Origin: Clostridia bacterium
Lineage (GTDB): Bacteria > Bacillota > DSM-521 > Neomoorellales > SLTJ01
Direction: 5' to 3'
Assembly (NCBI GenBank): GCA_004347685.1
Contig: SLTJ01000041.1
Coordinates: 1 to 64,000 of the forward strand
DNA: 64,000 nucleotides
Shown here: positions 1,073 through 12,711 of the stretch, piece by piece
Position numbering within the stretch: position 1 is the first letter of the stretch
Layout of the letters: each line of letters opens with the position of its first letter
Position numbers and translations under genes: made by a program
The notes under the pieces: generated by a model
What the model was told of the DNA's origin: nothing
The model's input: only the letters and a program-made list of their open reading frames with translations
Database searches by the model: none

Positions 1073-1737
1073 ATGACGCTCTCCTTAACGAAGGTCGAAA
1101 CATTTCTCCATGCCCTGATTGAAGCGGTGCCTCTTTTTGCTCCCTTCCTGACGATCTCATGTCGGTTTCTGGCAGTTCTGGCGCGAAAGTCTCTCCCTTT
1201 GGGCCGTCGCCGATCCGACAAGACTGTTGTCTTTCTCCGCTGCACTCGCCAGGGTCCGGTCGTTGAAGAAAGTTTACGCCAAACGTTCCGCCTCCGAGCG
1301 CTCTTTTAAGCGGGCCAAGGTTGGTTATGGGCTGGAACGTTGCCGCGTTCGGAGCAAGGAGGCCTGGTTCTGGCGTAGCCACCTGGTGGCCATGAACCAG
1401 CACTTGGATGCCTGGATTGCCGAAGCCTCTTCTCACGGCTGGGACATCTGGGCTGAGATGCTGGGTCAGCCACTGGCAGCCTAAGATTTTACCCGCCTAA
1501 GCACGCTCTTTCCAACCAATCCCCTTACGCACGCATATTTTAAGGGTTAGCTTTGCTATTCTCTTTTTTGTTCCCCTGTTTTCCTCTATCACCCAATTAT
1601 GACTCATATTTACTGCTACCACAGCCTGGTTGATTCCCTCGTTCAACACGCTTTGTACTTTTTGCCATTACTTCCTTTCAATTGGTTTATTACCCGATTT
1701 TACCTGGAGTTTTCTGGGCGTTTACAAGAGCCTACAC
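962..1737 (+). mobile_element. Internally deleted IS (copy B), same family as copy A
   Basis: The limits are set by an imperfect terminal inverted repeat: left tatgttctcgg at about 962, and right sequence whose reverse complement reads taggctcttgtaaac near 1723-1737. The enclosed transposase has lost its middle. A sequence starting at 1073 (MTLSLTKVETFLHALIEAVP) resembles the N-terminus, and 1255-1484 is the C-terminal ERSFKRAK...WFWRSHLVAMNQHLDAW block, in a different frame. The right end overlaps the last codons of the minus-strand small-subunit gene at 1722-2012. Confidence 0.5.
1073..1484 (+). pseudogene. Deleted transposase gene of IS copy B
   Basis: An N-terminal piece (about 1073-1250) and a C-terminal piece (about 1255-1484) of a DDE-type transposase are joined out of frame, so most of the catalytic core is missing. 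The C-terminal piece is clearly the same family as the fragment at 221-640. The residues differ at many positions, so the two are related elements rather than a recent duplication. The assignment of the N-terminal piece is by general resemblance and is weaker. Confidence 0.5.
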
Positions 1738-2012
1738 TTATTACATTGGAAATCGTATATCCCGGGCTTAAAATTTGCACAGCCTCGAAGATCAAGATAA
1801 ACTATATTACCCTTACATTCACCGGCAAATTCTTTACTATCAATCGCTTTATATTGACTACAAAACTTGCATTTTAACGCCCGTTTAAAACGAGAGCATT
1901 CGTTGGCGGTGGTATCAATTAATACCCTCTCTTCGTTAGCCTCACAATAGCCTTCAAAAACATCATGGGTTATACAAAATTCGCAATCCATGCATCTTAC
2001 ATCGTTAGCCAT
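1722..2012 (-). CDS. hpdC: Cysteine-rich small subunit resembling HpdC of 4-hydroxyphenylacetate decarboxylase
   Basis: A 96-residue protein with eleven Cys. The spacing fits the two-cluster layout of the iron-sulfur small subunit of 4-hydroxyphenylacetate decarboxylase (HPAD). Cys10, Cys23, Cys39 and Cys48, Cys51, Cys66, Cys78 fall at or near the recalled HpdC ligand spacing. Cys7 sits where the known protein uses a His, giving an all-Cys set of eight. In HPAD this subunit holds two [4Fe-4S] clusters and is needed for a stable, regulated complex. The ATG is supported by AGGAGG ten bases upstream. It points the same way as the glycyl radical enzyme gene at 3819-6464, from which a dead IS110-type element separates it. 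The last four residues and the stop lie inside the inverted repeat of IS copy B, so the C-terminus after about residue 84 may not be original. The assignment is by remembered pattern, not alignment. Confidence 0.65.
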   Translation of the reverse strand: MANDVRCMDCEFCITHDVFEGYCEANEERVLIDTTANECSRFKRALKCKFCSQYKAIDSKEFAGECKGNIVYLDLRGCANFKPGIYDFQCNKCRLL

Positions 2013-2444
2013 TTTTCTAAACCTCCTATCTCAATATTTTTCATTGATGCTCTAAAAAGCTCACTCTATCTACCATTTTTAAGAAATTTGTCTTGGGTGG
2101 TCTAACCCACCTGAGCGCCCCCTGCTTATCCTATCATGTCTCCCGGGGTCAAAAGCCCTACATTCCTTCGTTCAGCATAATGGGGGCGGGTGGGGCACCG
2201 TTACTCGTATGCAGGGTCATGCCCTAATGGAGGTTTTTGGTTTCCCTCACCCAAGATGTTTCTTTTTGTACTGATTTTCTATCATTGTCAGGCTTGTGGA
2301 TATGTGGGCAACGCTTTTGAGCCGTGTCCAAGCGAGTGTGGACAAAGGGGCAGGCCAACGGACCGCCTGTAAACCAAGGTTTTCGGTTAACAACTTCTGG
2401 CGGGGAGAAGATCTCCGCCGCCTGTCCCCACGTCCACAAGCCTT
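2013..2444. other. Non-coding right part of the IS110-type element and leader of the small-subunit gene
   Basis: No gene is seen. Positions 2013-2100 are the AT-rich leader of the gene at 1722-2012. Positions 2290-2440 are the 3' non-coding end of the neighbouring IS110-family element and are strongly self-complementary (see the RNA candidate at 2337-2438). The exact IS boundary could not be fixed. Confidence 0.4.
2337..2438 (-). ncRNA. Candidate bridge-type RNA of the IS110-family element
   Basis: Just downstream of the dead transposase, tgtggacaaaggggcaggc (2337-2355) is nearly the reverse complement of gcctgtccccacgtccaca (2420-2438), giving a long outer stem. Inside are a GC-rich hairpin (2399-2419) and a smaller one around 2373-2390. 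IS110/IS1111-family elements are known to carry a structured guide RNA in one non-coding end. This position, 3' of the transposase, matches the IS1111 arrangement. The function is inferred from structure and place only. Confidence 0.4.
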
Positions 2445-3720
2445 TTAGGCCGCCAGTTGCTGCCGGCGGTAGCTGCTCAGAACCTTCTCCGGGTCGTAAA
2501 GGCGTTTTTCTTTGGCCAAGGTGAACATTACCCGCAGGAGTTTGCAGGCGACCACCACCAGGGCCTGCTTGCTTTTCAGCGGATTTTCCCGCCGGGTTCT
2601 CAGGTAAGCGTAAAGCGCTCTAAACTGGGGTTTTTGGCTACCAGAACAGGCGCGGCGTGGTAGAGAATGTTTCGCAATCCTGAGCGGCCCCGCTTGGAGA
2701 ATGTTGTGCTTCCTTTTTTAGAATCCCCAGATTGGTTTATGGTCAGGTTGTAACCGGCCAGTTTGCGGATCTGGCGCCAGTCTTCGTACCGGGTCAGATC
2801 CCCCACTTCCCCTAAGAAGCTGGCGGCAGTAACGACTCCGATTCCGGGAGCTCAAAAGGTATTCGGCTAAACCAGTGTTGACCAGGGCCTTTTCCGTGGC
2901 CGCTTCAGTTTGGGTTAATTGTTTTTGCCAGAAGAAGATTTCTTCCAAGCACTGGGTCAGGCGCAAGCGGGCGGCGGTTAGGCCTTCCGGTACGCCGATG
3001 GATTCGTTGGCCGCGGCCAGTAAAAGAACGGCCCGTTTTTGACCCACTTTCCCGCTGCTGGCTGCCTTAAGTTCAGCAGTCAGCTCTTCTACCGTGAGCT
3101 GTTTTAGGTCGGCCGGGAAGGGTCGGTGGGTCAGGATGTACAGGGAGGCCTTCCCCAGAAGGTTTTTAAAAACCCGCTCGGGAAAGTACTCGTCCAGGAT
3201 CGCTACCAGATTGTTCTGGGCGGCGTTTAGTTTGGCCTTTTGCTGGTGGCGGTTTTGGGTGTACCCCCGGAGTTCCGCCCAGATCCCTTTGGGTAGATAG
3301 CAGTGGAAAAAGCGTCCTTCCCTGGTTAAAGTGGCCACGATCAGGGCGTCTTTCCGGTCGTTTTTGGTGGGTGAGTTTATCGTCGAGTTCTTTTGGTTTT
3401 TTACGCGGTAGGGGTTGACGATAACTACCGGGATACCGCTATTGACCAGGTAGCTGGCCAGAGGTTTCCAGTAGTGGCCGGAAGGCTCCATGGCCACGAC
3501 GATGTTTTTCGCGCCGATTTGTTCTTTGATCAGGTGCATTCTACCTAAATAGACGGGTAAAGCCGTTTATGCTATTCTGGAAAGAGAAGACGCTGCCCAC
3601 TTCAATACCCGTTGATCCGTCCAGCGTGCGGGCCCAGTGGGTCCTTTTCGCAATGTCGACACCTACAATCAGGGTGTGGACTTTGCGAATCTCTTTTAGG
3701 TTTTTGTTTCGTTTCGTCAT
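2445..3720 (-). pseudogene. IS110-family transposase with three frameshifts
   Basis: The product starts MTKRNKNLKEIRKVHTLIVG followed by VDIAKRTHWA (ATG at 3720, GGAGGT before it). It continues through AMEPSGHYW and DRKDALIV, typical of the DEDD N-terminal domain, to GIGVVTAASFLGEVGDLTRY of the C-terminal domain and ends in YRRQQLAA. The reading frame changes near 3548, near 2850 and near 2633, and there is an in-frame stop after TRLFR. Single-base slips would restore each join. Core genes in the window are intact, so decay is more likely than sequencing error. The element sits between the glycyl radical enzyme gene and its presumed small-subunit gene, on the same strand. Confidence 0.8.
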
Positions 3721-3818
3721 TAATCTCGACCTCCGGTACTTTTTGTGTTTGCTCTAACCTATTTGTACCAGGAGGTCTTTTTGTTGGTCAACCCCCTTAA
3801 AAAGGATTACAGGAATGC

Positions 3819-6464
3819 TCATATTTCCCCATATTCAGTCCTGGCAATGATCTCATCCTGAATCGGCTTGGAAAGCTCGACCCAATACGCCGTAAATCCG
3901 GCCACCCTTACCAGAAGGTCCCTATAGTTCTCCGGGTGGTCCTGTGCATCTCTCAACATTCTTGTATCTACTACATTAAACTGAATGTGATAACCACCCT
4001 TGTCCATATAAGCCTTGATTAGCTCCAAAAGCTTCCTAGAACCTTGAGTGCCTTTAATACAGCTAGGGTGTACCTTAAGGTTTAACTGGGTATTCTGGTA
4101 GTCGGAGTGATCAATTATAACCGCCGAGTTCAAAACGGCGTATGGGCCGTTAAGGTCAGTGCCAGGATATGGTGATTGAGCAGCATCAGCGAGAGTGAGA
4201 CCAGCCAAACGTCCATCAGCCGAAGCAATACACGCCTGACCTAAAGGCCCGTGAGATGCTACCGAGAGCTGACACGGAACCCAGGGTCTCCCAAATACGT
4301 CCTTTACCTGAGGAACCACATCTCTCCAGTACTCTATTACATCCTTATAAATTTCATCTACGTAAGGATCGTCATTGCCGTATTTGGGGGCGTTTACACA
4401 AAGTGAATGAATCCGGGCCCACTCATCGGTTTCTCTTTTTTGGTCAAGCAAAGAGAATTGAGAAGTTTCTAGGGCACTCCTGTAACCAAAGTTATTAATT
4501 AAAGCATTTTTAAGCTCATCGAGAGTGAAATTCCTTTCCTCATATACATTCTTCTTAATGGACGCCAGTGAATTGGCAAGATTAACCTGACCGGTAATCC
4601 ACGTAGTCAGGGTTCTGTTGTACCTACAACCGCCTCTATCCATATCCAGGCCCTTCTCTATACAATCAGCCATAAGCGCTGAGTAGAAGATGGGATTATC
4701 AATGTTGAACATGGCGGCTGCCTTAAGGTTGTACATCTCTTCGAATACAGTTACCACTTCATAAAAATACTGTTGCCAGGCACGATATAGCTCTTCATAT
4801 GTTTCAAGCTTAGAGCCATGCGGTGGGAACACCCTTACCTTCGTCCTTGGATCCACACCATCCCATAGTACCAACTCTAAGACCTTGGGCATGTTGATGA
4901 ATCCCACGCCGGTAGAACTGTAAGATCCGGCACCAAGCCGGCCGTTAACCAAGGCGCCTGGCTGGATTTCCAGACATCCACCGATTGTCCAGGCCCGGGC
5001 ATCCTCAAGTGTAATCCCCTCGTCCTTGAATGTCTTCATAAGATACTCCATGGCTACTCTGTTATTCACCCAGGCAGGATAGCCGGTACCAATCTTATTG
5101 CATTCGATGGCCTTGAGTAAGAACTTCTCGCTCAGCTTACCATCGTATAACACTGTGAGGGTGGGTTGCGGCGTAGCGCAAGTCATGGCCGACTCAATAA
5201 TTAGTTCCTCCAGCTCATTTTCAGCTGAAGTTCCATCCGGATTGACGCCGCCGATGCACAAGTTATTAAAGGTGCTCCCCCCCGTCAAGCCAATCGTGCC
5301 GACGGACTGGGCTATTTCAATCTCGGTGAATTTAACCCTCATGCACTCTAATATCTCAAGCGTTTGCTCCCGGGTAATCCGGCCCTCTTTGATATCCTGC
5401 TTCCAGAACGGGTAAAGAACCTGACCCAACCTGCCGGGTGAAAGCCCCGAAATTTGTAATTCATTCACAACGGCGATGTGACAGGTCCAGCAAAGCTGCA
5501 GTGCTTCAATAAAAGTGCGCGGCGGGTTCTCCGCAATCCATTCCAGGCGCCCGGCAATCTCTTCGAACTCTTGTTTTTGCTTAACATTCTTTTCCTTGGC
5601 AGCTAATCTCTTAGCCTCCTTAGCGTAGTTCCTAATCCAAGCTTGCACCCCTTCAATAACAATTATCGTTGCTTTCCAAAAGGCAATCTTATCCGCATTA
5701 CCTTCCTTAATATTGGCGTTAATCTTTTCCGTACAGGCATCAATCATGCCTTTAAAACCAATTTGAAGGGGAAGCTGATAGTTAACAACGTTACGGCCAT
5801 GGCGAAGTGAGTACTCAAGGTCTACGTGCATTAAGACAGCCTTTTTCATATTTAAGTATTGATCATACTTAGGGTGCATTGCCGCCCACATAAAACAGGT
5901 ATCCTCGGAAGACTTATTTTTCCAGTATCGACATACTTCAACTAACATAGGGAATTCTTCTCTCCGAATGCCGAAGCGGCCTGAAATGGAGAGAACATTA
6001 CCTGCACTCTGGGTAACGTTGCCGCCGCCCTTTGCCAATACAACAACTTCTTCCAAGCTCATCTTAGAAGCTTCTTCAGCCTCGTGCTCCATCCTTTCTT
6101 CAATGCTTAAGGGATAACGGTTGGCCGTCCAGGGCATGACAAAGGCACCCCTGATATAACGCGTTTTTTGCATCACCAAAAGCTCGCCGGCACGAATCAT
6201 GGGCGTAAGATGCTCGAATCCACACTTCAAAGCCAGTGCCCGCCTGATTAAAGGATGCTGACCTTCTTCTTCAATCCATTTTCGCGTGTACCAATAGGGA
6301 AACTCGATATCAAGGGAAATTTTAGCATTTAAATAGTCATCGCGTAGTTTCTTAGCCCTTTTAGAGGGCTCCTTTCTAATCTCCCTATCAGTTACCTCTT
6401 TAGGGACTTTACCATACTGAAAGCTGAGCCGCATTTCGCCTAGTTTTACTTCAGCAATTGACAT
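3819..6464 (-). CDS. hpdB: Glycyl radical enzyme, arylacetate decarboxylase type (HpdB-like large subunit)
   Basis: 881 residues, cytoplasmic and oxygen-sensitive by family. The glycyl radical site is Gly856 in RVAGF near the C-terminus, and the thiyl Cys is Cys497 in GGCLE. Cys-Leu-Glu with Glu499 marks the decarboxylase branch (4-hydroxyphenylacetate, phenylacetate, indoleacetate) rather than the GCVEP of choline and diol lyases. Many blocks follow HPAD as remembered: EFPYWYTR, GGGNVTQSAGNV, GYPAWVNN, FHIQYNVVD-like GGYHIQFNVVD, KPIQDEIIARTEY. The two residues known to hold the substrate para-hydroxyl in Clostridium HPAD, His536 and Glu637, align here with Gly521 and Trp622. A non-hydroxylated or bulkier arylacetate is therefore more likely. 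The ATG follows AGGAGGT by eight bases. Upstream sequence abuts an IS21 end, and no radical-SAM activase is in the window. Base composition is much AT-richer than the core genes. Family confidence is high; the substrate is unknown. Confidence 0.88.
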   Translation of the reverse strand: MSIAEVKLGEMRLSFQYGKVPKEVTDREIRKEPSKRAKKLRDDYLNAKISLDIEFPYWYTRKWIEEEGQHPLIRRALALKCGFEHLTPMIRAGELLVMQKTRYIRGAFVMPWTANRYPLSIEERMEHEAEEASKMSLEEVVVLAKGGGNVTQSAGNVLSISGRFGIRREEFPMLVEVCRYWKNKSSEDTCFMWAAMHPKYDQYLNMKKAVLMHVDLEYSLRHGRNVVNYQLPLQIGFKGMIDACTEKINANIKEGNADKIAFWKATIIVIEGVQAWIRNYAKEAKRLAAKEKNVKQKQEFEEIAGRLEWIAENPPRTFIEALQLCWTCHIAVVNELQISGLSPGRLGQVLYPFWKQDIKEGRITREQTLEILECMRVKFTEIEIAQSVGTIGLTGGSTFNNLCIGGVNPDGTSAENELEELIIESAMTCATPQPTLTVLYDGKLSEKFLLKAIECNKIGTGYPAWVNNRVAMEYLMKTFKDEGITLEDARAWTIGGCLEIQPGALVNGRLGAGSYSSTGVGFINMPKVLELVLWDGVDPRTKVRVFPPHGSKLETYEELYRAWQQYFYEVVTVFEEMYNLKAAAMFNIDNPIFYSALMADCIEKGLDMDRGGCRYNRTLTTWITGQVNLANSLASIKKNVYEERNFTLDELKNALINNFGYRSALETSQFSLLDQKRETDEWARIHSLCVNAPKYGNDDPYVDEIYKDVIEYWRDVVPQVKDVFGRPWVPCQLSVASHGPLGQACIASADGRLAGLTLADAAQSPYPGTDLNGPYAVLNSAVIIDHSDYQNTQLNLKVHPSCIKGTQGSRKLLELIKAYMDKGGYHIQFNVVDTRMLRDAQDHPENYRDLLVRVAGFTAYWVELSKPIQDEIIARTEYGEI

Positions 6465-6542
6465 CTCTTCTTACCTCCTATCTGAAGTTTTGTTTGACTT
6501 GGATCCGGTAAGTAACCGTCAACAATCCTTTGCTTTCGCTAA

Positions 6543-6676
6543 AATAAAAGTAAGCCATTTTGGCTCAGATTGATAATATCAAGGTGAGCCACCCAGGCAC
6601 CGGAATTGCGTGTAATGATATTGTCAAACTGAGCCATTTGGGCCGATTTTGCTATTGTAAACTGAGCCACTTCCCC
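6543..6676 (+). repeat. Terminal repeats of an IS21-family element
   Basis: Four related copies of a motif around tgagccacc/tgagccatt occur in 130 bases: an inverted pair near 6551-6567, then copies near 6583-6592, 6630-6646 and 6659-6672. The last two share attgt(c/a)aactgagcca. Multiple end repeats of this kind are typical of IS21-family left ends, and the istA start follows at 6730. They end close to the 5' leader of the glycyl radical enzyme gene, so this IS may have replaced that gene's original promoter region. Confidence 0.6.
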
Positions 6677-6729
6677 AAACCCCTGTATACTGGAGGAAAA
6701 GCTCACAGTAGCAGGGGGTAGAAAAGGGA

Positions 6730-6817
6730 GTGATCAACATAAACCTTTACGAACAAATAAGATACCTGTATGCAGTAGAAAAGCTTTCCCAACGCGCCAT
6801 ATCCCGTAAGTTGTTGG
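6730..6817 (+). pseudogene. istA: 5' fragment of IS21-family istA
   Basis: A GTG start behind AGGGAG encodes about 29 residues including LYEQIRYLYAVEKLSQRAIS and RKLL, the start of the IstA helix-turn-helix. The reading frame then runs into the IS110-type element at 6818. Removing that element joins RKLL to GISRNTVKRYC at 8208, which restores a perfect IstA HTH. Confidence 0.75.
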
Positions 6818-6823
6818 CATGAT

Positions 6824-6839
6824 AAAACCGCAACCCTGG
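6824..6839 (+). repeat. Left subterminal inverted repeat of the IS110-type element
   Basis: The sequence aaaaccgcaaccctgg is exactly inverted at 8183-8198. It brackets the transposase and non-coding region. Confidence 0.8.
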
Positions 6840-6879
6840 CGAATTAAACAGTTAAGGGTCGGGGTATTTCAGCAAGGTT

Positions 6880-7012
6880 GGGCGCAGGCAAGGGCGGCCG
6901 TTCTATGATATGGGCAACAAAGCCCGACAGGTTGTTTGGCCGCCCCCTCGACTCGCCCAAGTGGGCTTCTAAGCCCGGATAGGTGAGTGTCGCGCTTACC
7001 TTTGCCTGCCCC
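6880..7012 (+). ncRNA. Candidate bridge-type RNA in the 5' non-coding part of the IS110-type element
   Basis: The region folds on paper into a closed multi-stem unit. Outer arms are gggcgcaggcaagg (6880-6893) and cctttgcctgcccc (6999-7012). An inner stem pairs gggcggcc (6892-6899) with ggccgccc (6938-6945), and further hairpins lie at 6955-6966 or 6963-6976. Short matches to the element ends sit in the first loop: atgata as at the left end (6819-6824), and ctatga, the complement of tcatag at the right end. They are only six bases and could be chance. The role is inferred from known IS110 guide RNAs. Confidence 0.4.
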
Positions 7013-7033
7013 AAAACAAGGAGGTTGCCAGGA

Positions 7034-8171
7034 TTGCGGTATTTCGGCCTTGACGTGCACAAGTCGTACTGTGAGGGAGCAGAGCTCCTGCCGGACAACA
7101 CCATCAGGCGTTTCCGCTTCCCCAACGAAAAGAAGGAGTGGAAGCGGTTCGCCAAGGAGCTTGACGGCAACTGCAAGGTGGCCCTTGAAGCCACAGGCAA
7201 TGTCTCCATGATCTATGATATCTTAGCGGGCCACGGCGCGCGAGTGGTCGTCGTCAACCCCATAAGGACCAGGGCCATCGCCGAGGCCAGGATCAAGACT
7301 GACAAGGTGGACGCCGAGATTTTAGTCAGGCTGTTGGCCGCGGACTTCGTCTGCGCCTGCTGGGTGGCGTCTAAAGAAGAAAGGGAATTAAGAACCCTTC
7401 TCCACCACCGGGCGGCCTTAAAGAAGCAAATCGTGGGCGTTAAAAACCGCATCCACGCCGTCCTGGCCAGGCAGCTATCGCCGTACCGGTGAGCGACCTG
7501 TTTGGGGTAACAGGGAGGCAGTTTCTCCGGGAGCTTAGTGAACTGCCCGAAGTGGAGAAGATAGTCCTAACCTCAAACCTCAAGGCTCTGGAAGCCCTGG
7601 AGGAGGAAATGGCGGCCATTGAGAAAGAGCTGAACCACAGGGCCACCGCCCTGCCTGGGATAGAGATTCTCATAGGCATACCAGCGATAGACGTCCTGGC
7701 TGCCCTGACCATCCTGGCCGAGATTGGCGACATCAAGCGCTTTGCCTCCGCGAAGAAGCTGGCCAGCTACGCCGGCCTGGTTCCTTCGGTGCACCAATCG
7801 GGCAAGACCAGGTACACCGGGCACATTACCAAGGCGGGCCGGAGCATGCTGCGCTGGATCCTCATCCAGGTCGCCCACAAGGTGGTGGGACAACCAGGGG
7901 CCCTCCGAGACTTCTACTTGCGGCTCCTAAAGCGTAAGGGCCCAAGATTGCCATTGTGGCCGCGGCAAGGAAACTGCCTACCATCATCTGGGCCATGCTA
8001 ACGAAGAACATGGAGTACCGCTACCTCAGGGAAGACTTGCGGCGAAAGAAGATCCGCCGCATGCACAAGCGGGCGCTGCCGTACAGGGTTAGCGGCGATT
8101 TGCCGCGAAAGATTGCGTCTGTCGTAGAAGAGGAGGTAGTTACGGCACAAACACCCCAACCTGCAGCCTAA
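7034..8171 (+). pseudogene. IS110-family transposase with two frameshifts
   Basis: A TTG start at 7034 follows AAGGAGG. RYFGLDVHKSYCEGAEL, ALEATGN and KTDKVDAEIL carry the DEDD-type acidic residues of the N-terminal domain. After about residue 148 the frame shifts (near 7475) and continues with VSDLFGVTG and LASYAGLVPSVHQSGKTRY, the C-terminal domain with its conserved Ser region. A second shift near 7945 leads to RKLPTIIWAMLTKNMEYRYL and a stop at 8171. All domains are recognisable, so decay is recent. It is not the same protein as the IS110-type transposase at 2445-3720. Confidence 0.8.
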
Positions 8172-8182
8172 GCTATCCAAAA

Positions 8183-8198
8183 CCAGGGTTGCGGTTTT
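8183..8198 (-). repeat. Right subterminal inverted repeat of the IS110-type element
   Basis: The sequence ccagggttgcggtttt is the exact reverse complement of 6824-6839. Confidence 0.8.
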
Positions 8199-8207
8199 TC
8201 ATAGGTG

Positions 8208-8534
8208 GGTATTTCCCGCAATACGGTGAAACGTTACTGCCAGGGCGAGAACATGCCCTGGGAAGGCAAACATCGAAGATATGAGCGCCCGGTAACCGGA
8301 CCTGTGGAAGAGGTGGTCAGGGAATGGCTGGCCAAGGATAAAACCGCACCCGCGAAACAACGCCACACCGCTGACCGCATCTACCAGCGTCTGGTGGAAG
8401 AACACGGCTTTACCGGCGCTCCTTCCACCGTTCGCAAGCTGGTAAAAGAGCTGCGGCTGGAAGGGGGCAAGGCCTTCGTACCCCTGGAGTTTGACCCTGG
8501 CGAGGCTGCCCAGATTCTTTCCGAATCCAGAACT
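8208..8534 (+). pseudogene. istA: 3' continuation of istA, truncated
   Basis: It resumes with GISRNTVKRYC and includes YERPVTGPVEEVVREWLAKD, KQRHTADRIYQRLVEEHGF and the start of the IstA catalytic domain (PLEFDPGEAAQ). The similarity stops near 8505-8534. The rest of istA, all of istB and the right end of the IS21 element are missing, so a deletion joined this point to unrelated DNA. Confidence 0.7.
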
Positions 8535-9003
8535 GGTAAATATCAGCCCGAAACCACCCGGAAGGAAGGGATCTTCCTCCATGGTTGTTCTATGGAGCGT
8601 AACTTATCCATAAATTGCCGCAAATCCTTGTAGGCCGCTAAAGTCCTCCTCTCCCGAACAGACAGATAAACCATCTCATTAATCCTTTTATTTCGTTGCT
8701 ATGTCACCCCTATTTTTTCATAAGTTGATTTTCATAAGTTGAACCGTTTCTTCATCTCCCTTCTTGTACAACGGACTAAAGCTGGGAGGCTACGAGGCCG
8801 GGCTGCCCCCCAGAAAGTATTGTATTAGACCGTATCAAGGAAGTCATTATACATTTTTGCTAAATCTGACTGACCAGGTTTGATGTTTATTACAAAAACA
8901 TTTAAAGCCGCAGAAGAAGGAATTAGCTTTTTGTTGGCGAAACTAAATTAAACCAACTATTCACCAACTGTTCAATGATAACAGGGCGAGGGGTGAAGGG
9001 TTA
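8535..9003. other. Intergenic junction zone with no confident gene
   Basis: A 43-codon minus-strand frame (8674 down to 8543, starting MVYLSVRERRTLAAYKDL) is open but unrecognised and has only a weak ribosome site. At about 8757-8816 the plus strand reads LYNGLKLGGYEAGLPPRK, which resembles the tail of dihydrodipicolinate-synthase-family lyases and may be a gene scrap. The last 100 bases are the AT-rich leader of the regulator starting at 9004. Confidence 0.35.
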
Positions 9004-10893
9004 ATGCTTTCCGCAAAGGAGGATCATACCCAGACGCTGATAAGCCGGGATTTAATGGGGGTTATAGAGAGTGTTCGCGCCATTGTCGGAGCTCAGGTGG
9101 CGGGCGTGGCTCTGTACGACGCTGGGCGAGGGGAATTGGAGACCTGCACGATGTTTGCCGAGGGAGACCCTATAATAAGCCGTATGAGGCTGGCCGACGA
9201 TAAGGCGCCGGTAAGGTTCTTCTCCACCGCTGATGGGTTATGGGTGTCCAACAACCCGTTAGAAGATCCCCGCCTAGACCACCATTATGTCCAGAAGTAT
9301 GCGGTAAAGAACGCGGTAATAGTTCCACTGGAATACCGCCAAGAGCGGATTGGCAACCTCCACCTGGCCAATAAAATTGCTGGCGATTTCACGACCCATG
9401 ACTGCGAAATAATCAGGCTCCTCGCCTTTGTAGTGGCCACTTTAGTCGAAAACCACTATCTATCAGCAGGCATTCAGCATCTGCTGTCCGAAACGAAGAT
9501 ACTCTACGAACACGAAAAGAAAGCCGCAGCCCAACTCAAAGAAGCCAACAGGCGACTGGAAAATCAGACCCGCAGGCTGAGCAGGATGATGAAAGTTCAG
9601 GAGCGGCTCCTGTCATTGATATTCCACGAGGCCGACCTACAAACTACCGCCGATACCCTTGAAGACCTCATCGGCAATCCTGTAGGCTTATTCGATGCTT
9701 CCCACCGCCTTCTGGCCTGTAGCAAAACCTTTTCCCAGGGCGACATTTATCTCAGTGAAGCCGCGAGAACCGGCACGTTGCCCGGATCTTTCAGGGAGCA
9801 CCGCGTCGTCCGGGACCACATGAAGTGGGGCCTGGCTAATAAGTCGGTCGTCCGCATCCCGCCGGTTTCCGCAAACGGAGAAGATCTCACCAAGTTTTTT
9901 GTCCCGGTATTTTGCCGTGACCGGATTGCCGGGTATATCTGTGCATCAGAGCGCAATGCCAAAATAAATGAGGACGAACTCCTCGCCATCCAACAAGCCG
10001 CCACTGTCTACGGCTTATATCTGCTCCGGGAAAAGGCAGTGCACGAGACTGAAGCCAAACTCAAGGGAGGCCTCGTCAACGAGCTCATCGCTGCCAGCTA
10101 CCCCGACGAAGAAGCCATAACCAAACAGGCGCAGTTCCTAGGCCACAATCTGAACGCCCCTCATTTCCTGGTACTCATCGAGCCAGATACCGTTGCGGTC
10201 AGGGGCAAAAACCGCGACACTGCCGTGGAGGTGAGTTCGCGCTTGGCAGCCATGGCCTCTGAGGTTTTTCCAAGGGGAGAGGGGATAAGCGTGTCACTCA
10301 AGGGAGCAGGTCTGGTAGCACTGGTAGCGGAGGAACTGATACCGCTGCGCTGGCCAGGGGCTACCATAGTCCAAGAAGTATGCCGCCACGTCAAGAAAGG
10401 TATAGAGAAAAGGCTCCATGGCTACACAGTAACCATTGGTATAAGCGACAGGTGTACATGCCCGGGCGATTATACCAACGCCTATCGCCAAGCCCGGCAG
10501 ACCGTTGACGTCGCCAGGTGCAGGGGAGAAAACGGGGCCATCGTGGCATGGAATTCTCTGGGGATAGTCGGAATGCTGACCCAGGCCGAAGATCCGGAAG
10601 CTTTGCTAAAGTTTGCCAAACAACAACTTGGACCGTTGCTCGAGTACGACCGGACCAAGGGCACGAAACTGGTGGAAACGCTAAAAGCCTTCCTTGATCA
10701 CAACGGGCACTTGGCAGCGACAGCGGCAGCCTTATACATCCACACCGGCACCCTTCGTTACCGGTTGGAAAAAATAAAACATCTCCTGGGATACGAGCTG
10801 GATGGCCCACGAAACCTTGACCTGCATTTCGCCGTGCGTATTCTGGAAGTTGTTGGCATGAAGACAACCAAGGGACCTTTTGCTGTAGAATAG
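9004..10893 (+). CDS. GAF-domain transcriptional regulator of the PucR/CdaR type
   Basis: 629 residues with no membrane segment. An N-terminal GAF domain (about 1-155) is followed by a coiled coil (about 165-205, EHEKKAAAQLKEANRRLENQ), then a second sensor-like region (about 205-335). A GGDEF-like module of the CdaR family comes next (about 350-510). The C-terminal PucR helix-turn-helix (about 560-622) contains HIHTGTLRYRLEKIKHLLGY. Such proteins control catabolic genes in response to a small ligand. It is the first intact gene beyond the IS island that holds the glycyl radical enzyme, so control of that enzyme is possible but is only inferred from proximity. ATG at 9004 follows GAGGGGTGAAGGG. 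It converges on thiE with 46 bases between. Confidence 0.8.
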   Translation: MLSAKEDHTQTLISRDLMGVIESVRAIVGAQVAGVALYDAGRGELETCTMFAEGDPIISRMRLADDKAPVRFFSTADGLWVSNNPLEDPRLDHHYVQKYAVKNAVIVPLEYRQERIGNLHLANKIAGDFTTHDCEIIRLLAFVVATLVENHYLSAGIQHLLSETKILYEHEKKAAAQLKEANRRLENQTRRLSRMMKVQERLLSLIFHEADLQTTADTLEDLIGNPVGLFDASHRLLACSKTFSQGDIYLSEAARTGTLPGSFREHRVVRDHMKWGLANKSVVRIPPVSANGEDLTKFFVPVFCRDRIAGYICASERNAKINEDELLAIQQAATVYGLYLLREKAVHETEAKLKGGLVNELIAASYPDEEAITKQAQFLGHNLNAPHFLVLIEPDTVAVRGKNRDTAVEVSSRLAAMASEVFPRGEGISVSLKGAGLVALVAEELIPLRWPGATIVQEVCRHVKKGIEKRLHGYTVTIGISDRCTCPGDYTNAYRQARQTVDVARCRGENGAIVAWNSLGIVGMLTQAEDPEALLKFAKQQLGPLLEYDRTKGTKLVETLKAFLDHNGHLAATAAALYIHTGTLRYRLEKIKHLLGYELDGPRNLDLHFAVRILEVVGMKTTKGPFAVE

Positions 10894-10939
10894 TGAACAA
10901 GTCTGCGCCAGGAGAGCAGTGCTGTTCTTTTACGTCCCG

Positions 10940-11584
10940 CTACGACGTAGCCAGGGCCACGCGCAGGGAGCGGATTTTCTCCTCAATGTCAGGAGCGCCC
11001 ACAATCTCGGTGACCATGGCGATCAGGCGGGCCCCGTGCCGGCGCACCTCGGCAATATTGTGCTCTTTAATGCCGCCGATGGCCACAAAGGGCAAGGGAA
11101 TATTCTCAACCACATAGTCCAGGTAGCCCAATCCCACCGGAGCAACTACATCCTTCTTGGTGCTGGTGGCAAACAGAGGGCCGACCCCGATGTAGTCCAC
11201 TGCCCCTGTCTTCAAAGCCGCCCGGGCCTGTTCCGGAGAGTGGGTGGACAGCCCGATCAGCAACTCCTCCCCCACCAGATCCCGCGCCTTCTCTGCCGGC
11301 AGGTCGTCCTGGCCGAGATGCACGCCGTCAGCCCCTACCGCCAGGGCCAGGTCCACCTGGTCATTGACCATGAGCGCCACGCCGGCCGCTGCCGTCAACT
11401 CCCGGAGGGCAAGGCACTCGTAGTATTTGGCCCGCACGGACTTCTCCTTTTCCCGGTACTGGATCAGCCGGACCCCGGCCCGGATCAGGGCCGGCACCAC
11501 CTCCAGGTTGCTGCGGCCCCGGGAGTAGTCTTCAGCGGTAATGGCGTAGATGTCTGTGTCCAAAGCCCCAAGGTTTCTGGCCAT
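10940..11584 (-). CDS. thiE: Thiamine-phosphate synthase
   Basis: Joins the hydroxymethylpyrimidine diphosphate and thiazole phosphate halves of thiamine. It has 214 residues, a normal length. It shows the TIM-barrel phosphate-binding features of the family: QYREKEKS, NDQVDLALAVGADGVHLGQ, a GPLFATSTK loop that holds the pyrophosphate, and AIGGIK. It is the last gene of the thiSGHE operon, 14 bases after thiH. Confidence 0.93.
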   Translation of the reverse strand: MARNLGALDTDIYAITAEDYSRGRSNLEVVPALIRAGVRLIQYREKEKSVRAKYYECLALRELTAAAGVALMVNDQVDLALAVGADGVHLGQDDLPAEKARDLVGEELLIGLSTHSPEQARAALKTGAVDYIGVGPLFATSTKKDVVAPVGLGYLDYVVENIPLPFVAIGGIKEHNIAEVRRHGARLIAMVTEIVGAPDIEEKIRSLRVALATS

Positions 11585-11598
11585 TCTTCTCCCTCGCT

Positions 11599-12711
11599 TT
11601 ACCCGGCCAGGGGTTCCCAGTCCTTGAATACCGGCTGGTACCCCTGCCGCAAAACCATCTGGTAGATTTCAGCCACTGTCCGCCGGTCAGCCACCTCAAA
11701 CTGAGCTTCGCCCTTGTCGGCGGTGGTCCGGCCCCCCACCTCCGTGGAAGAACCGGCCGAAAGCCTGGTCACCCCCAGCATTACCAGCCTATCCCGTAAT
11801 TCCGGCCGTTCCCGCGTAGAAATGGTGATCCCCAACCGGGGACGGTAAAGGCGCAAAGCCAACATCATCTGTACCAGGTCCGCGTCAGTAACCTCTACGG
11901 TGGGAACGAAACTGCTGCCGGCATGGGGGCGCAACCTCGGGAAAGATACGGCCACCTCGGTGGCCCAGTAATGGTCCTGCAGGTAGGCTGCGTGCAGGCC
12001 GGTGACAAAGGCTTCCCGGCGCCAGTCATTGAGCCCCAGGAGGGCGCCGATGTTCACGGATACCATGCCTGCCTGGCAGGCCCGCTCCGGGGCCTCCAAC
12101 CGGAAGCGGTAATCGCGTTTCGGGCCGGCCGGATGCACCTGGGCGTATACCTCTTCGTCGTACACCTCCTGGTAAACGGTCAGGCCATCCACTCCCTCCC
12201 GCAGCAAGGTCCGGTACTCCTCGGTTTCCAGGGGGTAGACCTCAATACTCAGAGAGGAAAAGTAAGGGCGCAATAGCTTTACCGCCTCCACCAGGTAACC
12301 TAAGGGAGCATGACGTCTGGCTTCCCCCGTCAGCAAAAGCAGGTGGCGCAGGCCGGTGCCGGCAATGGCCCTGCCTTCGGCTTCTATTTCTTCCGGGGTG
12401 AGGGTCTTCCGGGCTATCTGGTTAGACGCACTCAGCCCGCAGTAGAGACAACGGTTAACGCAATAATTGGAAAGGTAAAGGGGGGTATACAGCACGATGA
12501 CCCGGCCGAAATGCTGGATGGACAAACGCCTGGCCCGCTGGGCCATGGGTTCGAGAAAAGATCGCGCTGCCGGTGAAAGCAGGGCCAGGTAGTCTCGTTC
12601 GGTGAGGGCTTCCCTGGCCAGAGCCCGCTCCACGTCCCCGGCCGTTATTCCCGCCCAGAGTTCTTCCCAGTTCAGGTCCTTGAGTCCCTGGTAGTAATCG
12701 TAAAAGCTCAT
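11599..12711 (-). CDS. thiH: 2-iminoacetate synthase (tyrosine lyase), radical SAM
   Basis: Cleaves tyrosine to dehydroglycine (2-iminoacetate) and p-cresol for thiazole formation, the anaerobic route in contrast to ThiO. The 370 residues contain the radical-SAM cluster motif [11 protein letters not shown] (Cys-x3-Cys-x2-Cys) near residue 85, and the long C-terminal domain of the ThiH branch. Its start overlaps the end of thiG by four bases, so translation is coupled. The p-cresol by-product is the same compound made by 4-hydroxyphenylacetate decarboxylase; no link is implied. Confidence 0.93.

Follow-up and report, generated by a model that had tools for sequence, protein, structure and literature searches.

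Contig SLTJ01000041.1 of the Clostridia bacterium assembly GCA_004347685.1 (contig C8 in our numbering) begins with a 64,000-nucleotide stretch, here called the window, which carries close to its start a pair of genes related to 4-hydroxyphenylacetate decarboxylase (HPAD). HPAD makes p-cresol from 4-hydroxyphenylacetate (HPA). The host is a spore-forming anaerobe with a genome of 3.1 Mb. An original prediction, made from the letters of the window, had described the pair as an HPAD-like decarboxylase with an altered substrate pocket. Both open reading frames (ORFs) proved to be genuine HPAD relatives, as judged from NCBIfam profiles and, for the large subunit, from its match to the solved structure of Clostridium HPAD (CsHPAD, PDB 2y8n). 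The genes lie 1.8 kb apart, with an IS110 remnant between them that is present as a single copy in the genome. The ORFs flanking this dead insertion sequence (IS) are intact and have strong ribosome-binding sites (RBSs), ATAGGAGG directly upstream of the large-subunit gene (Table 1).

The large subunit contains PFL-like and glycine-radical Pfam domains. Its top NCBIfam model was the HPAD large subunit, NF033715, at 1118 bits (curated cut-off 1150), followed by indoleacetate decarboxylase (IAD) at 885 bits (cut-off 1100). The closest solved structure was 2y8n (E=7.8e-245, 818 bits), whereas PDB 7e7l, titled hydroxyphenylacetic acid decarboxylase and taken by us to be the arylacetate decarboxylase (AAD), matched with 294 bits. 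The predicted model of the subunit (mean pLDDT 84.6, pTM 0.88) compared with 2y8n at TM scores of 0.93/0.94 and 44% identity. The small subunit matched NF033716 with E=5.5e-10 and scored 39.5 bits, short of the cut-off (50). Its predicted eight-ligand pattern is present, and both four-ligand [4Fe-4S] sites, in HPAD made of one His and seven Cys, are completely filled (Cys7, 10, 23, 39 and Cys48, 51, 66, 78). The first ligand, however, is Cys7 instead of the cluster-I His3 of CsHPAD, as in several Bacteroidota HPADs, and an additional CxxC lies at the C-terminus.

To compare the active sites, 100 large-subunit sequences, CsHPAD among them, were aligned. The radical Gly, the thiyl Cys and the adjacent Glu were all found in the window enzyme, in line with the residues originally assigned (Gly856, Cys497 and Glu499). 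CsHPAD Arg223, Ser344, Gly345 and Phe405 correspond to Arg224, Ser339, Gly340 and Phe399. Thus, the radical and carboxylate-end residues are kept, whereas the residues at the ring end are swapped. His536 and Glu637, which hold the para-hydroxyl in HPAD, are replaced by Gly521 and Trp622. Further ring-end changes from CsHPAD to the window are Phe214 to Val, Leu400 to Thr394, Ile750 to Leu and Asn635/Phe636 to Thr620/Thr621, and the loop at CsHPAD position 397 is one residue shorter. The pairing of Gly521/Trp622 with His536/Glu637, on which the prediction depended, held: the first column lies in the gap-free block STGVGFINMPK / GTGVHFIGMPK and the second in the gap-free block RYNRTLTTWITGQVNLANS / RYNSCINFESCGTITFVNS, while a 9-residue deletion sits upstream of the first block, which argues against an alignment artefact. 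His536 and Glu637 are jointly retained in 93 of the 100 rows, and each row that keeps His536 also keeps Glu637. The seven rows without the pair are the window, L018, L012, L013, L014, L016 and L017; no small subunit was found in the fetched DNA of the last three.

Table 1 Features of the decarboxylase locus in the window; residue counts refer to the 100-row alignment.
Feature	Position	Strand	Remarks
AACTTACGCTGTAGTA	32-47	plus	Probable insertion-sequence end
Two IS1182-type transposase fragments	167-640, 1227-1484	plus	Downstream of small subunit; 75.7% identical over 189 bp
Small [4Fe-4S] subunit	1722-2012	minus	96 aa; own RBS; NF033716 match
Spacer between subunit genes	2013-3818	minus	Decayed, frameshifted IS110 remnant (longest frame 2718-3539)
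Large catalytic glycyl-radical subunit	3819-6464	minus	Full ORF, 881 aa; NF033715 and 2y8n matches
Gly856 codon, glycyl-radical site (CsHPAD Gly873)	3897-3899	minus	Gly in 100/100 rows
Trp622 codon (CsHPAD Glu637 position)	4599-4601	minus	Glu in 93/100 rows; Trp only in window and L018
Gly521 codon (CsHPAD His536 position)	4902-4904	minus	His in 93/100 rows; L018 also Gly
Glu499 codon (CsHPAD Glu505)	4968-4970	minus	Glu in 97/100 rows
Cys497 codon, thiyl-radical Cys (CsHPAD Cys503)	4974-4976	minus	Cys in 100/100 rows
GAF/PucR-type (CdaR-like) regulator	9004-10893	plus	Divergent to large subunit, beyond IS110 debris; GC 0.54

A single scan covering 84,980 species genomes yielded 80 relatives. 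The closest, L018, is encoded on a contig of a Desulfovibrionaceae metagenome-assembled genome and is 70% identical to the large subunit; all other relatives are at most 54% identical. L018 carries the same Gly/Trp replacement with the STGVGF and TTW signatures, and its small subunit likewise has Cys for His3 and the extra C-terminal Cys. Since the replacement recurs in a protein 70% identical from another phylum, it is no one-off mutation. Phe214 and Leu400 are retained in L018, so that these two changes are no hallmark of the pair. A third member of the Gly/Trp clade was not found in about 900 further Bacillota genomes of several classes, and plasmid and viral-contig searches returned no relative. 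Divergence of the large-subunit gene from that of L018 was 0.25/0.16/0.64 by codon position, which indicates constraint at the protein level.

Large-subunit trees were calculated with a quick method (33 rows) and with a careful mixture model (21 rows), both without characterised PhdB and AAD sequences. The outgroup consisted of the true IAD L017, which scores 1576 bits on the IAD model, and a distant glycyl-radical enzyme; both are without His536 and Glu637. The window and L018 paired in both trees, with support of 99/99 in the careful one, and the sampled HPADs including CsHPAD clustered at 100/100 to the exclusion of the window, with the window/L018 pair as their sister. The large subunit is therefore placed outside the characterised HPAD clade, an outcome that leaves the original prediction standing. 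As the simplest reading of the sequences, the small subunit would predate the HPAD pocket and the window lineage would never have had it; loss of the pocket on the lineage's own stem would be a less simple alternative. L012 and L013 are two-subunit relatives without His536/Glu637 and with Ala for Glu505. Because they nest inside HPAD, the tree indicates at least two separate origins of two-subunit enzymes lacking this pocket. Thus, the predicted combination of two subunits without the HPAD pocket was borne out, but its description as new has to be qualified, as L012 and L013 lost the pocket separately.

The L012 and L013 large subunits (L012:1459-4134 and L013:1489-4305; small subunits adjacent) score 1314 and 1200 bits, above the HPAD cut-off. 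In addition to the Glu505 replacement they show Leu/Arg for His536, Ile for Glu637, Cys for Ser344 and Tyr for Phe405. Judged by these residues, they would be a second pocket variant, and one that would be annotated as HPAD. L014 and L016 were considered as IAD-like proteins and rejected, as they score higher on glycerol dehydratase than on HPAD; they were used as outgroup only.

No activase is encoded within the window. The sole strong HPAD-type activase of the genome lies on another contig (G000:C23:5926-6867) and scores 384 bits (cut-off 420). Among 29 activases placed in a tree, it groups with the L018 activase (SH-aLRT 96, 53.6% identity). The 16-mer AACTTACGCTGTAGTA occurs exactly twice in the genome, at C8:32-47 and C23:38-53. 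An exact match at both starts would be expected if both contigs were cut off at a single insertion sequence, which suggests that C8 and C23 adjoin. When joined, the genes run in one direction in the order large subunit, small subunit, Na+/solute symporter (C23:435-1871), IS debris and activase, and the assembly was probably broken by an insertion sequence between the small subunit and the transporter and activase. The operon of L018 is intact and shows the order large subunit (4553-7225), small subunit (7245-7502), MFS transporter (7712-8930) and activase (9025-9963), followed by a GAF sigma-54 regulator (10217-11905); its transporter gene is of the oxalate/formate or lactate type and frameshifted.

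The GC content at third codon positions is 0.50 for the large subunit, 0.33 for the small subunit, 0.43 for the symporter and 0.44 for the activase, compared with 0.72-0.79 for the window's core genes. Given this difference, the decarboxylase gene group was most likely acquired horizontally.

Taken together, we lean toward the view that these imported genes encode an arylacetate decarboxylase of the glycyl-radical type, which has two subunits, is the sister of HPAD, is served by a radical-SAM activase of its own encoded on C23 and probably acts on a non-phenolic substrate. The activase would place the radical on Gly856, from where it would be passed on to Cys497, and the acetate side chain would be held by Arg224, Ser339, Gly340, Phe399, Cys497 and Glu499. 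In HPAD, the phenol proton passes to Glu637 as the carboxylate is oxidised by the thiyl radical; this Glu is missing from IAD, for which the evidence favours abstraction of a methylene hydrogen (PMC9248008, PMC4979209, PMC6181972). The rebuilt ring end of the window enzyme (Gly521, Trp622, Thr394, Thr620/621 and the one-residue loop deletion) would offer no base for a para-hydroxyl, which makes a Glu637-coupled Kolbe-type step unlikely; initiation by methylene hydrogen abstraction, as proposed for IAD, would be more likely. With the carboxylate and radical end kept and no base at the Glu637 position, a non-phenolic arylacetate and hydrogen abstraction are favoured. Decarboxylation would yield a methyl-arene, and the iron-sulphur subunit would be retained as in HPAD. 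Our best guess for the substrate is phenylacetate, giving toluene, since Trp622 should fill the para end; indole-3-acetate comes second.

Several points weigh against this interpretation. The window/L018 clade has only two members found, and the link between C8 and C23 is based on a single shared 16-mer and on gene order. Insertion sequences have broken up the operon in this genome, and its expression may be poor. Moreover, loss of residues is no proof of a new substrate, since AAD is reported to decarboxylate HPA though it has neither the HPAD pocket residues nor the auxiliary subunit (PMC9248008).

The AAD precedent also bears on the question of whether the window encodes a divergent HPAD that still decarboxylates HPA through other residues or a different binding of the ring. 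HPAD (HpdB/HpdC/HpdA; 2y8n/2yaj) shares with the window enzyme the large and small iron-sulphur subunits, the activase, the fold, the Gly/Cys/Glu radical site and the carboxylate end. It is also the top NCBIfam match, the activase is near the HPAD activase model, and the gene order agrees, including a transporter slot, once C8 and C23 are joined. The slot holds a Na+/solute symporter in this genome and an MFS transporter in HPAD operons. The strict retention of Glu637 in all 93 rows with His536 suggests strong selection for this pair in HPAD, and in the window the pair is replaced and several further ring-end residues have changed together; loop deletions and the cluster-I Cys for His are other differences from HPAD. 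All three components, large subunit, small subunit and activase, miss their curated HPAD cut-offs. We therefore regard continued HPA decarboxylation as unlikely. By pocket, score and tree position, the window enzyme is, at the level of sequence, no member of HPAD, even though it is built like HPAD and is probably activated like it.

Distinctly unlikely, in our estimate, is a two-subunit IAD forming skatole. The window and L018 do score higher on the IAD model (885 and 803 bits) than HPADs (about 700-715 bits), Trp622 could stack on indole, and IAD likewise is without Glu637 and with the catalytic Cys and Glu (PMC6181972). However, IAD His514 and Leu616 correspond to Gly519 and Trp622 in the window, whereas the true IAD L017 has His at the former column; the proteins are about 43% identical, and the score stays far below the IAD cut-off. 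A small subunit, which both the window and L018 have, is not known from any IAD (PMC6181972). Phenylacetate decarboxylase (PhdB/PAD), compared by description, may share the substrate class without a para-hydroxyl; it has Gln in place of the catalytic Glu (PMC9248008), where the window has Glu499.

We give a similarly small chance to a decaying, non-functional import, in which an IS-shattered operon would be kept by chance. The IS110 remnant between the subunit genes, the IS debris on either side and the separated activase fit this idea, but the IS110 element itself is dead and frameshifted, whereas neither the subunit ORFs nor the activase are disrupted, and all of them retain their key residues and good RBSs. 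A glycyl-radical enzyme that uses the same scaffold for a reaction other than arylacetate decarboxylation is very unlikely: the ring end is rebuilt at several positions and the transporter is of a different family, yet all six acetate-end residues and the small subunit are retained.

A further-reaching version of the favoured interpretation is that the window and L018 represent a new class of glycyl-radical arylacetate decarboxylase with two subunits, which diverged from HPAD prior to the origin of the para-hydroxyl pocket and acts on a non-phenolic substrate by hydrogen abstraction. We rate this as a serious possibility that falls a little short of even chances. Discussions of HPAD usually link its small subunit with the Glu637-coupled mechanism. 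An enzyme that has the subunit and lacks the pocket uncouples these features and makes the role of the subunit testable; if the proposal is true, the iron-sulphur subunit would not be tied to phenol chemistry. The enzyme may also provide a new way in which toluene or a different methyl-arene is formed biologically. Automatic annotation of this lineage as a p-cresol-forming HPAD would be unsafe.

Upstream of the large subunit, an IS110-family transposase (6983-8001) is split by a frameshift. The GAF/PucR-type regulator beyond it is a possible regulator of the decarboxylase cluster; with its intermediate GC content and its position beside the imported region, it may have arrived with the cluster. 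In the HPAD operons of L048, L058, L061, L062, L068, L071, L073, L084 and L090, the gene between those for the small subunit and the activase encodes a conserved MFS transporter with the start motif SWLAVFCLFGYR or near variants. Complete HPADs with small subunit and activase were also found on two Methanomicrobiales archaeon contigs (L019 and L056), which represent either archaeal HPADs or mis-binned contigs.

The HPAD small subunits vary in their cluster-I ligands. Cys replaces His3 in L029, L039-L041, L043-L045 and similar Bacteroidota/Ignavibacteria proteins, whose large subunits have a normal HPAD pocket, so that this exchange is common in one branch. We asked whether the exchange goes along with the pocket change and discarded the idea, as Bacteroidota HPADs with the normal pocket share the Cys. 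A two-residue insertion in the Cys39 loop was likewise dropped as a mark of the window/L018 pair, since the C. scatologenes-type small subunit has it. In the small subunits of L075, L090, L091, L093, L095 and L096, which include Tannerella forsythia, the cluster-I ligands are lost and cluster II is kept, as exemplified by L096 (YRDTREFVPVDADKGLDRLTG).

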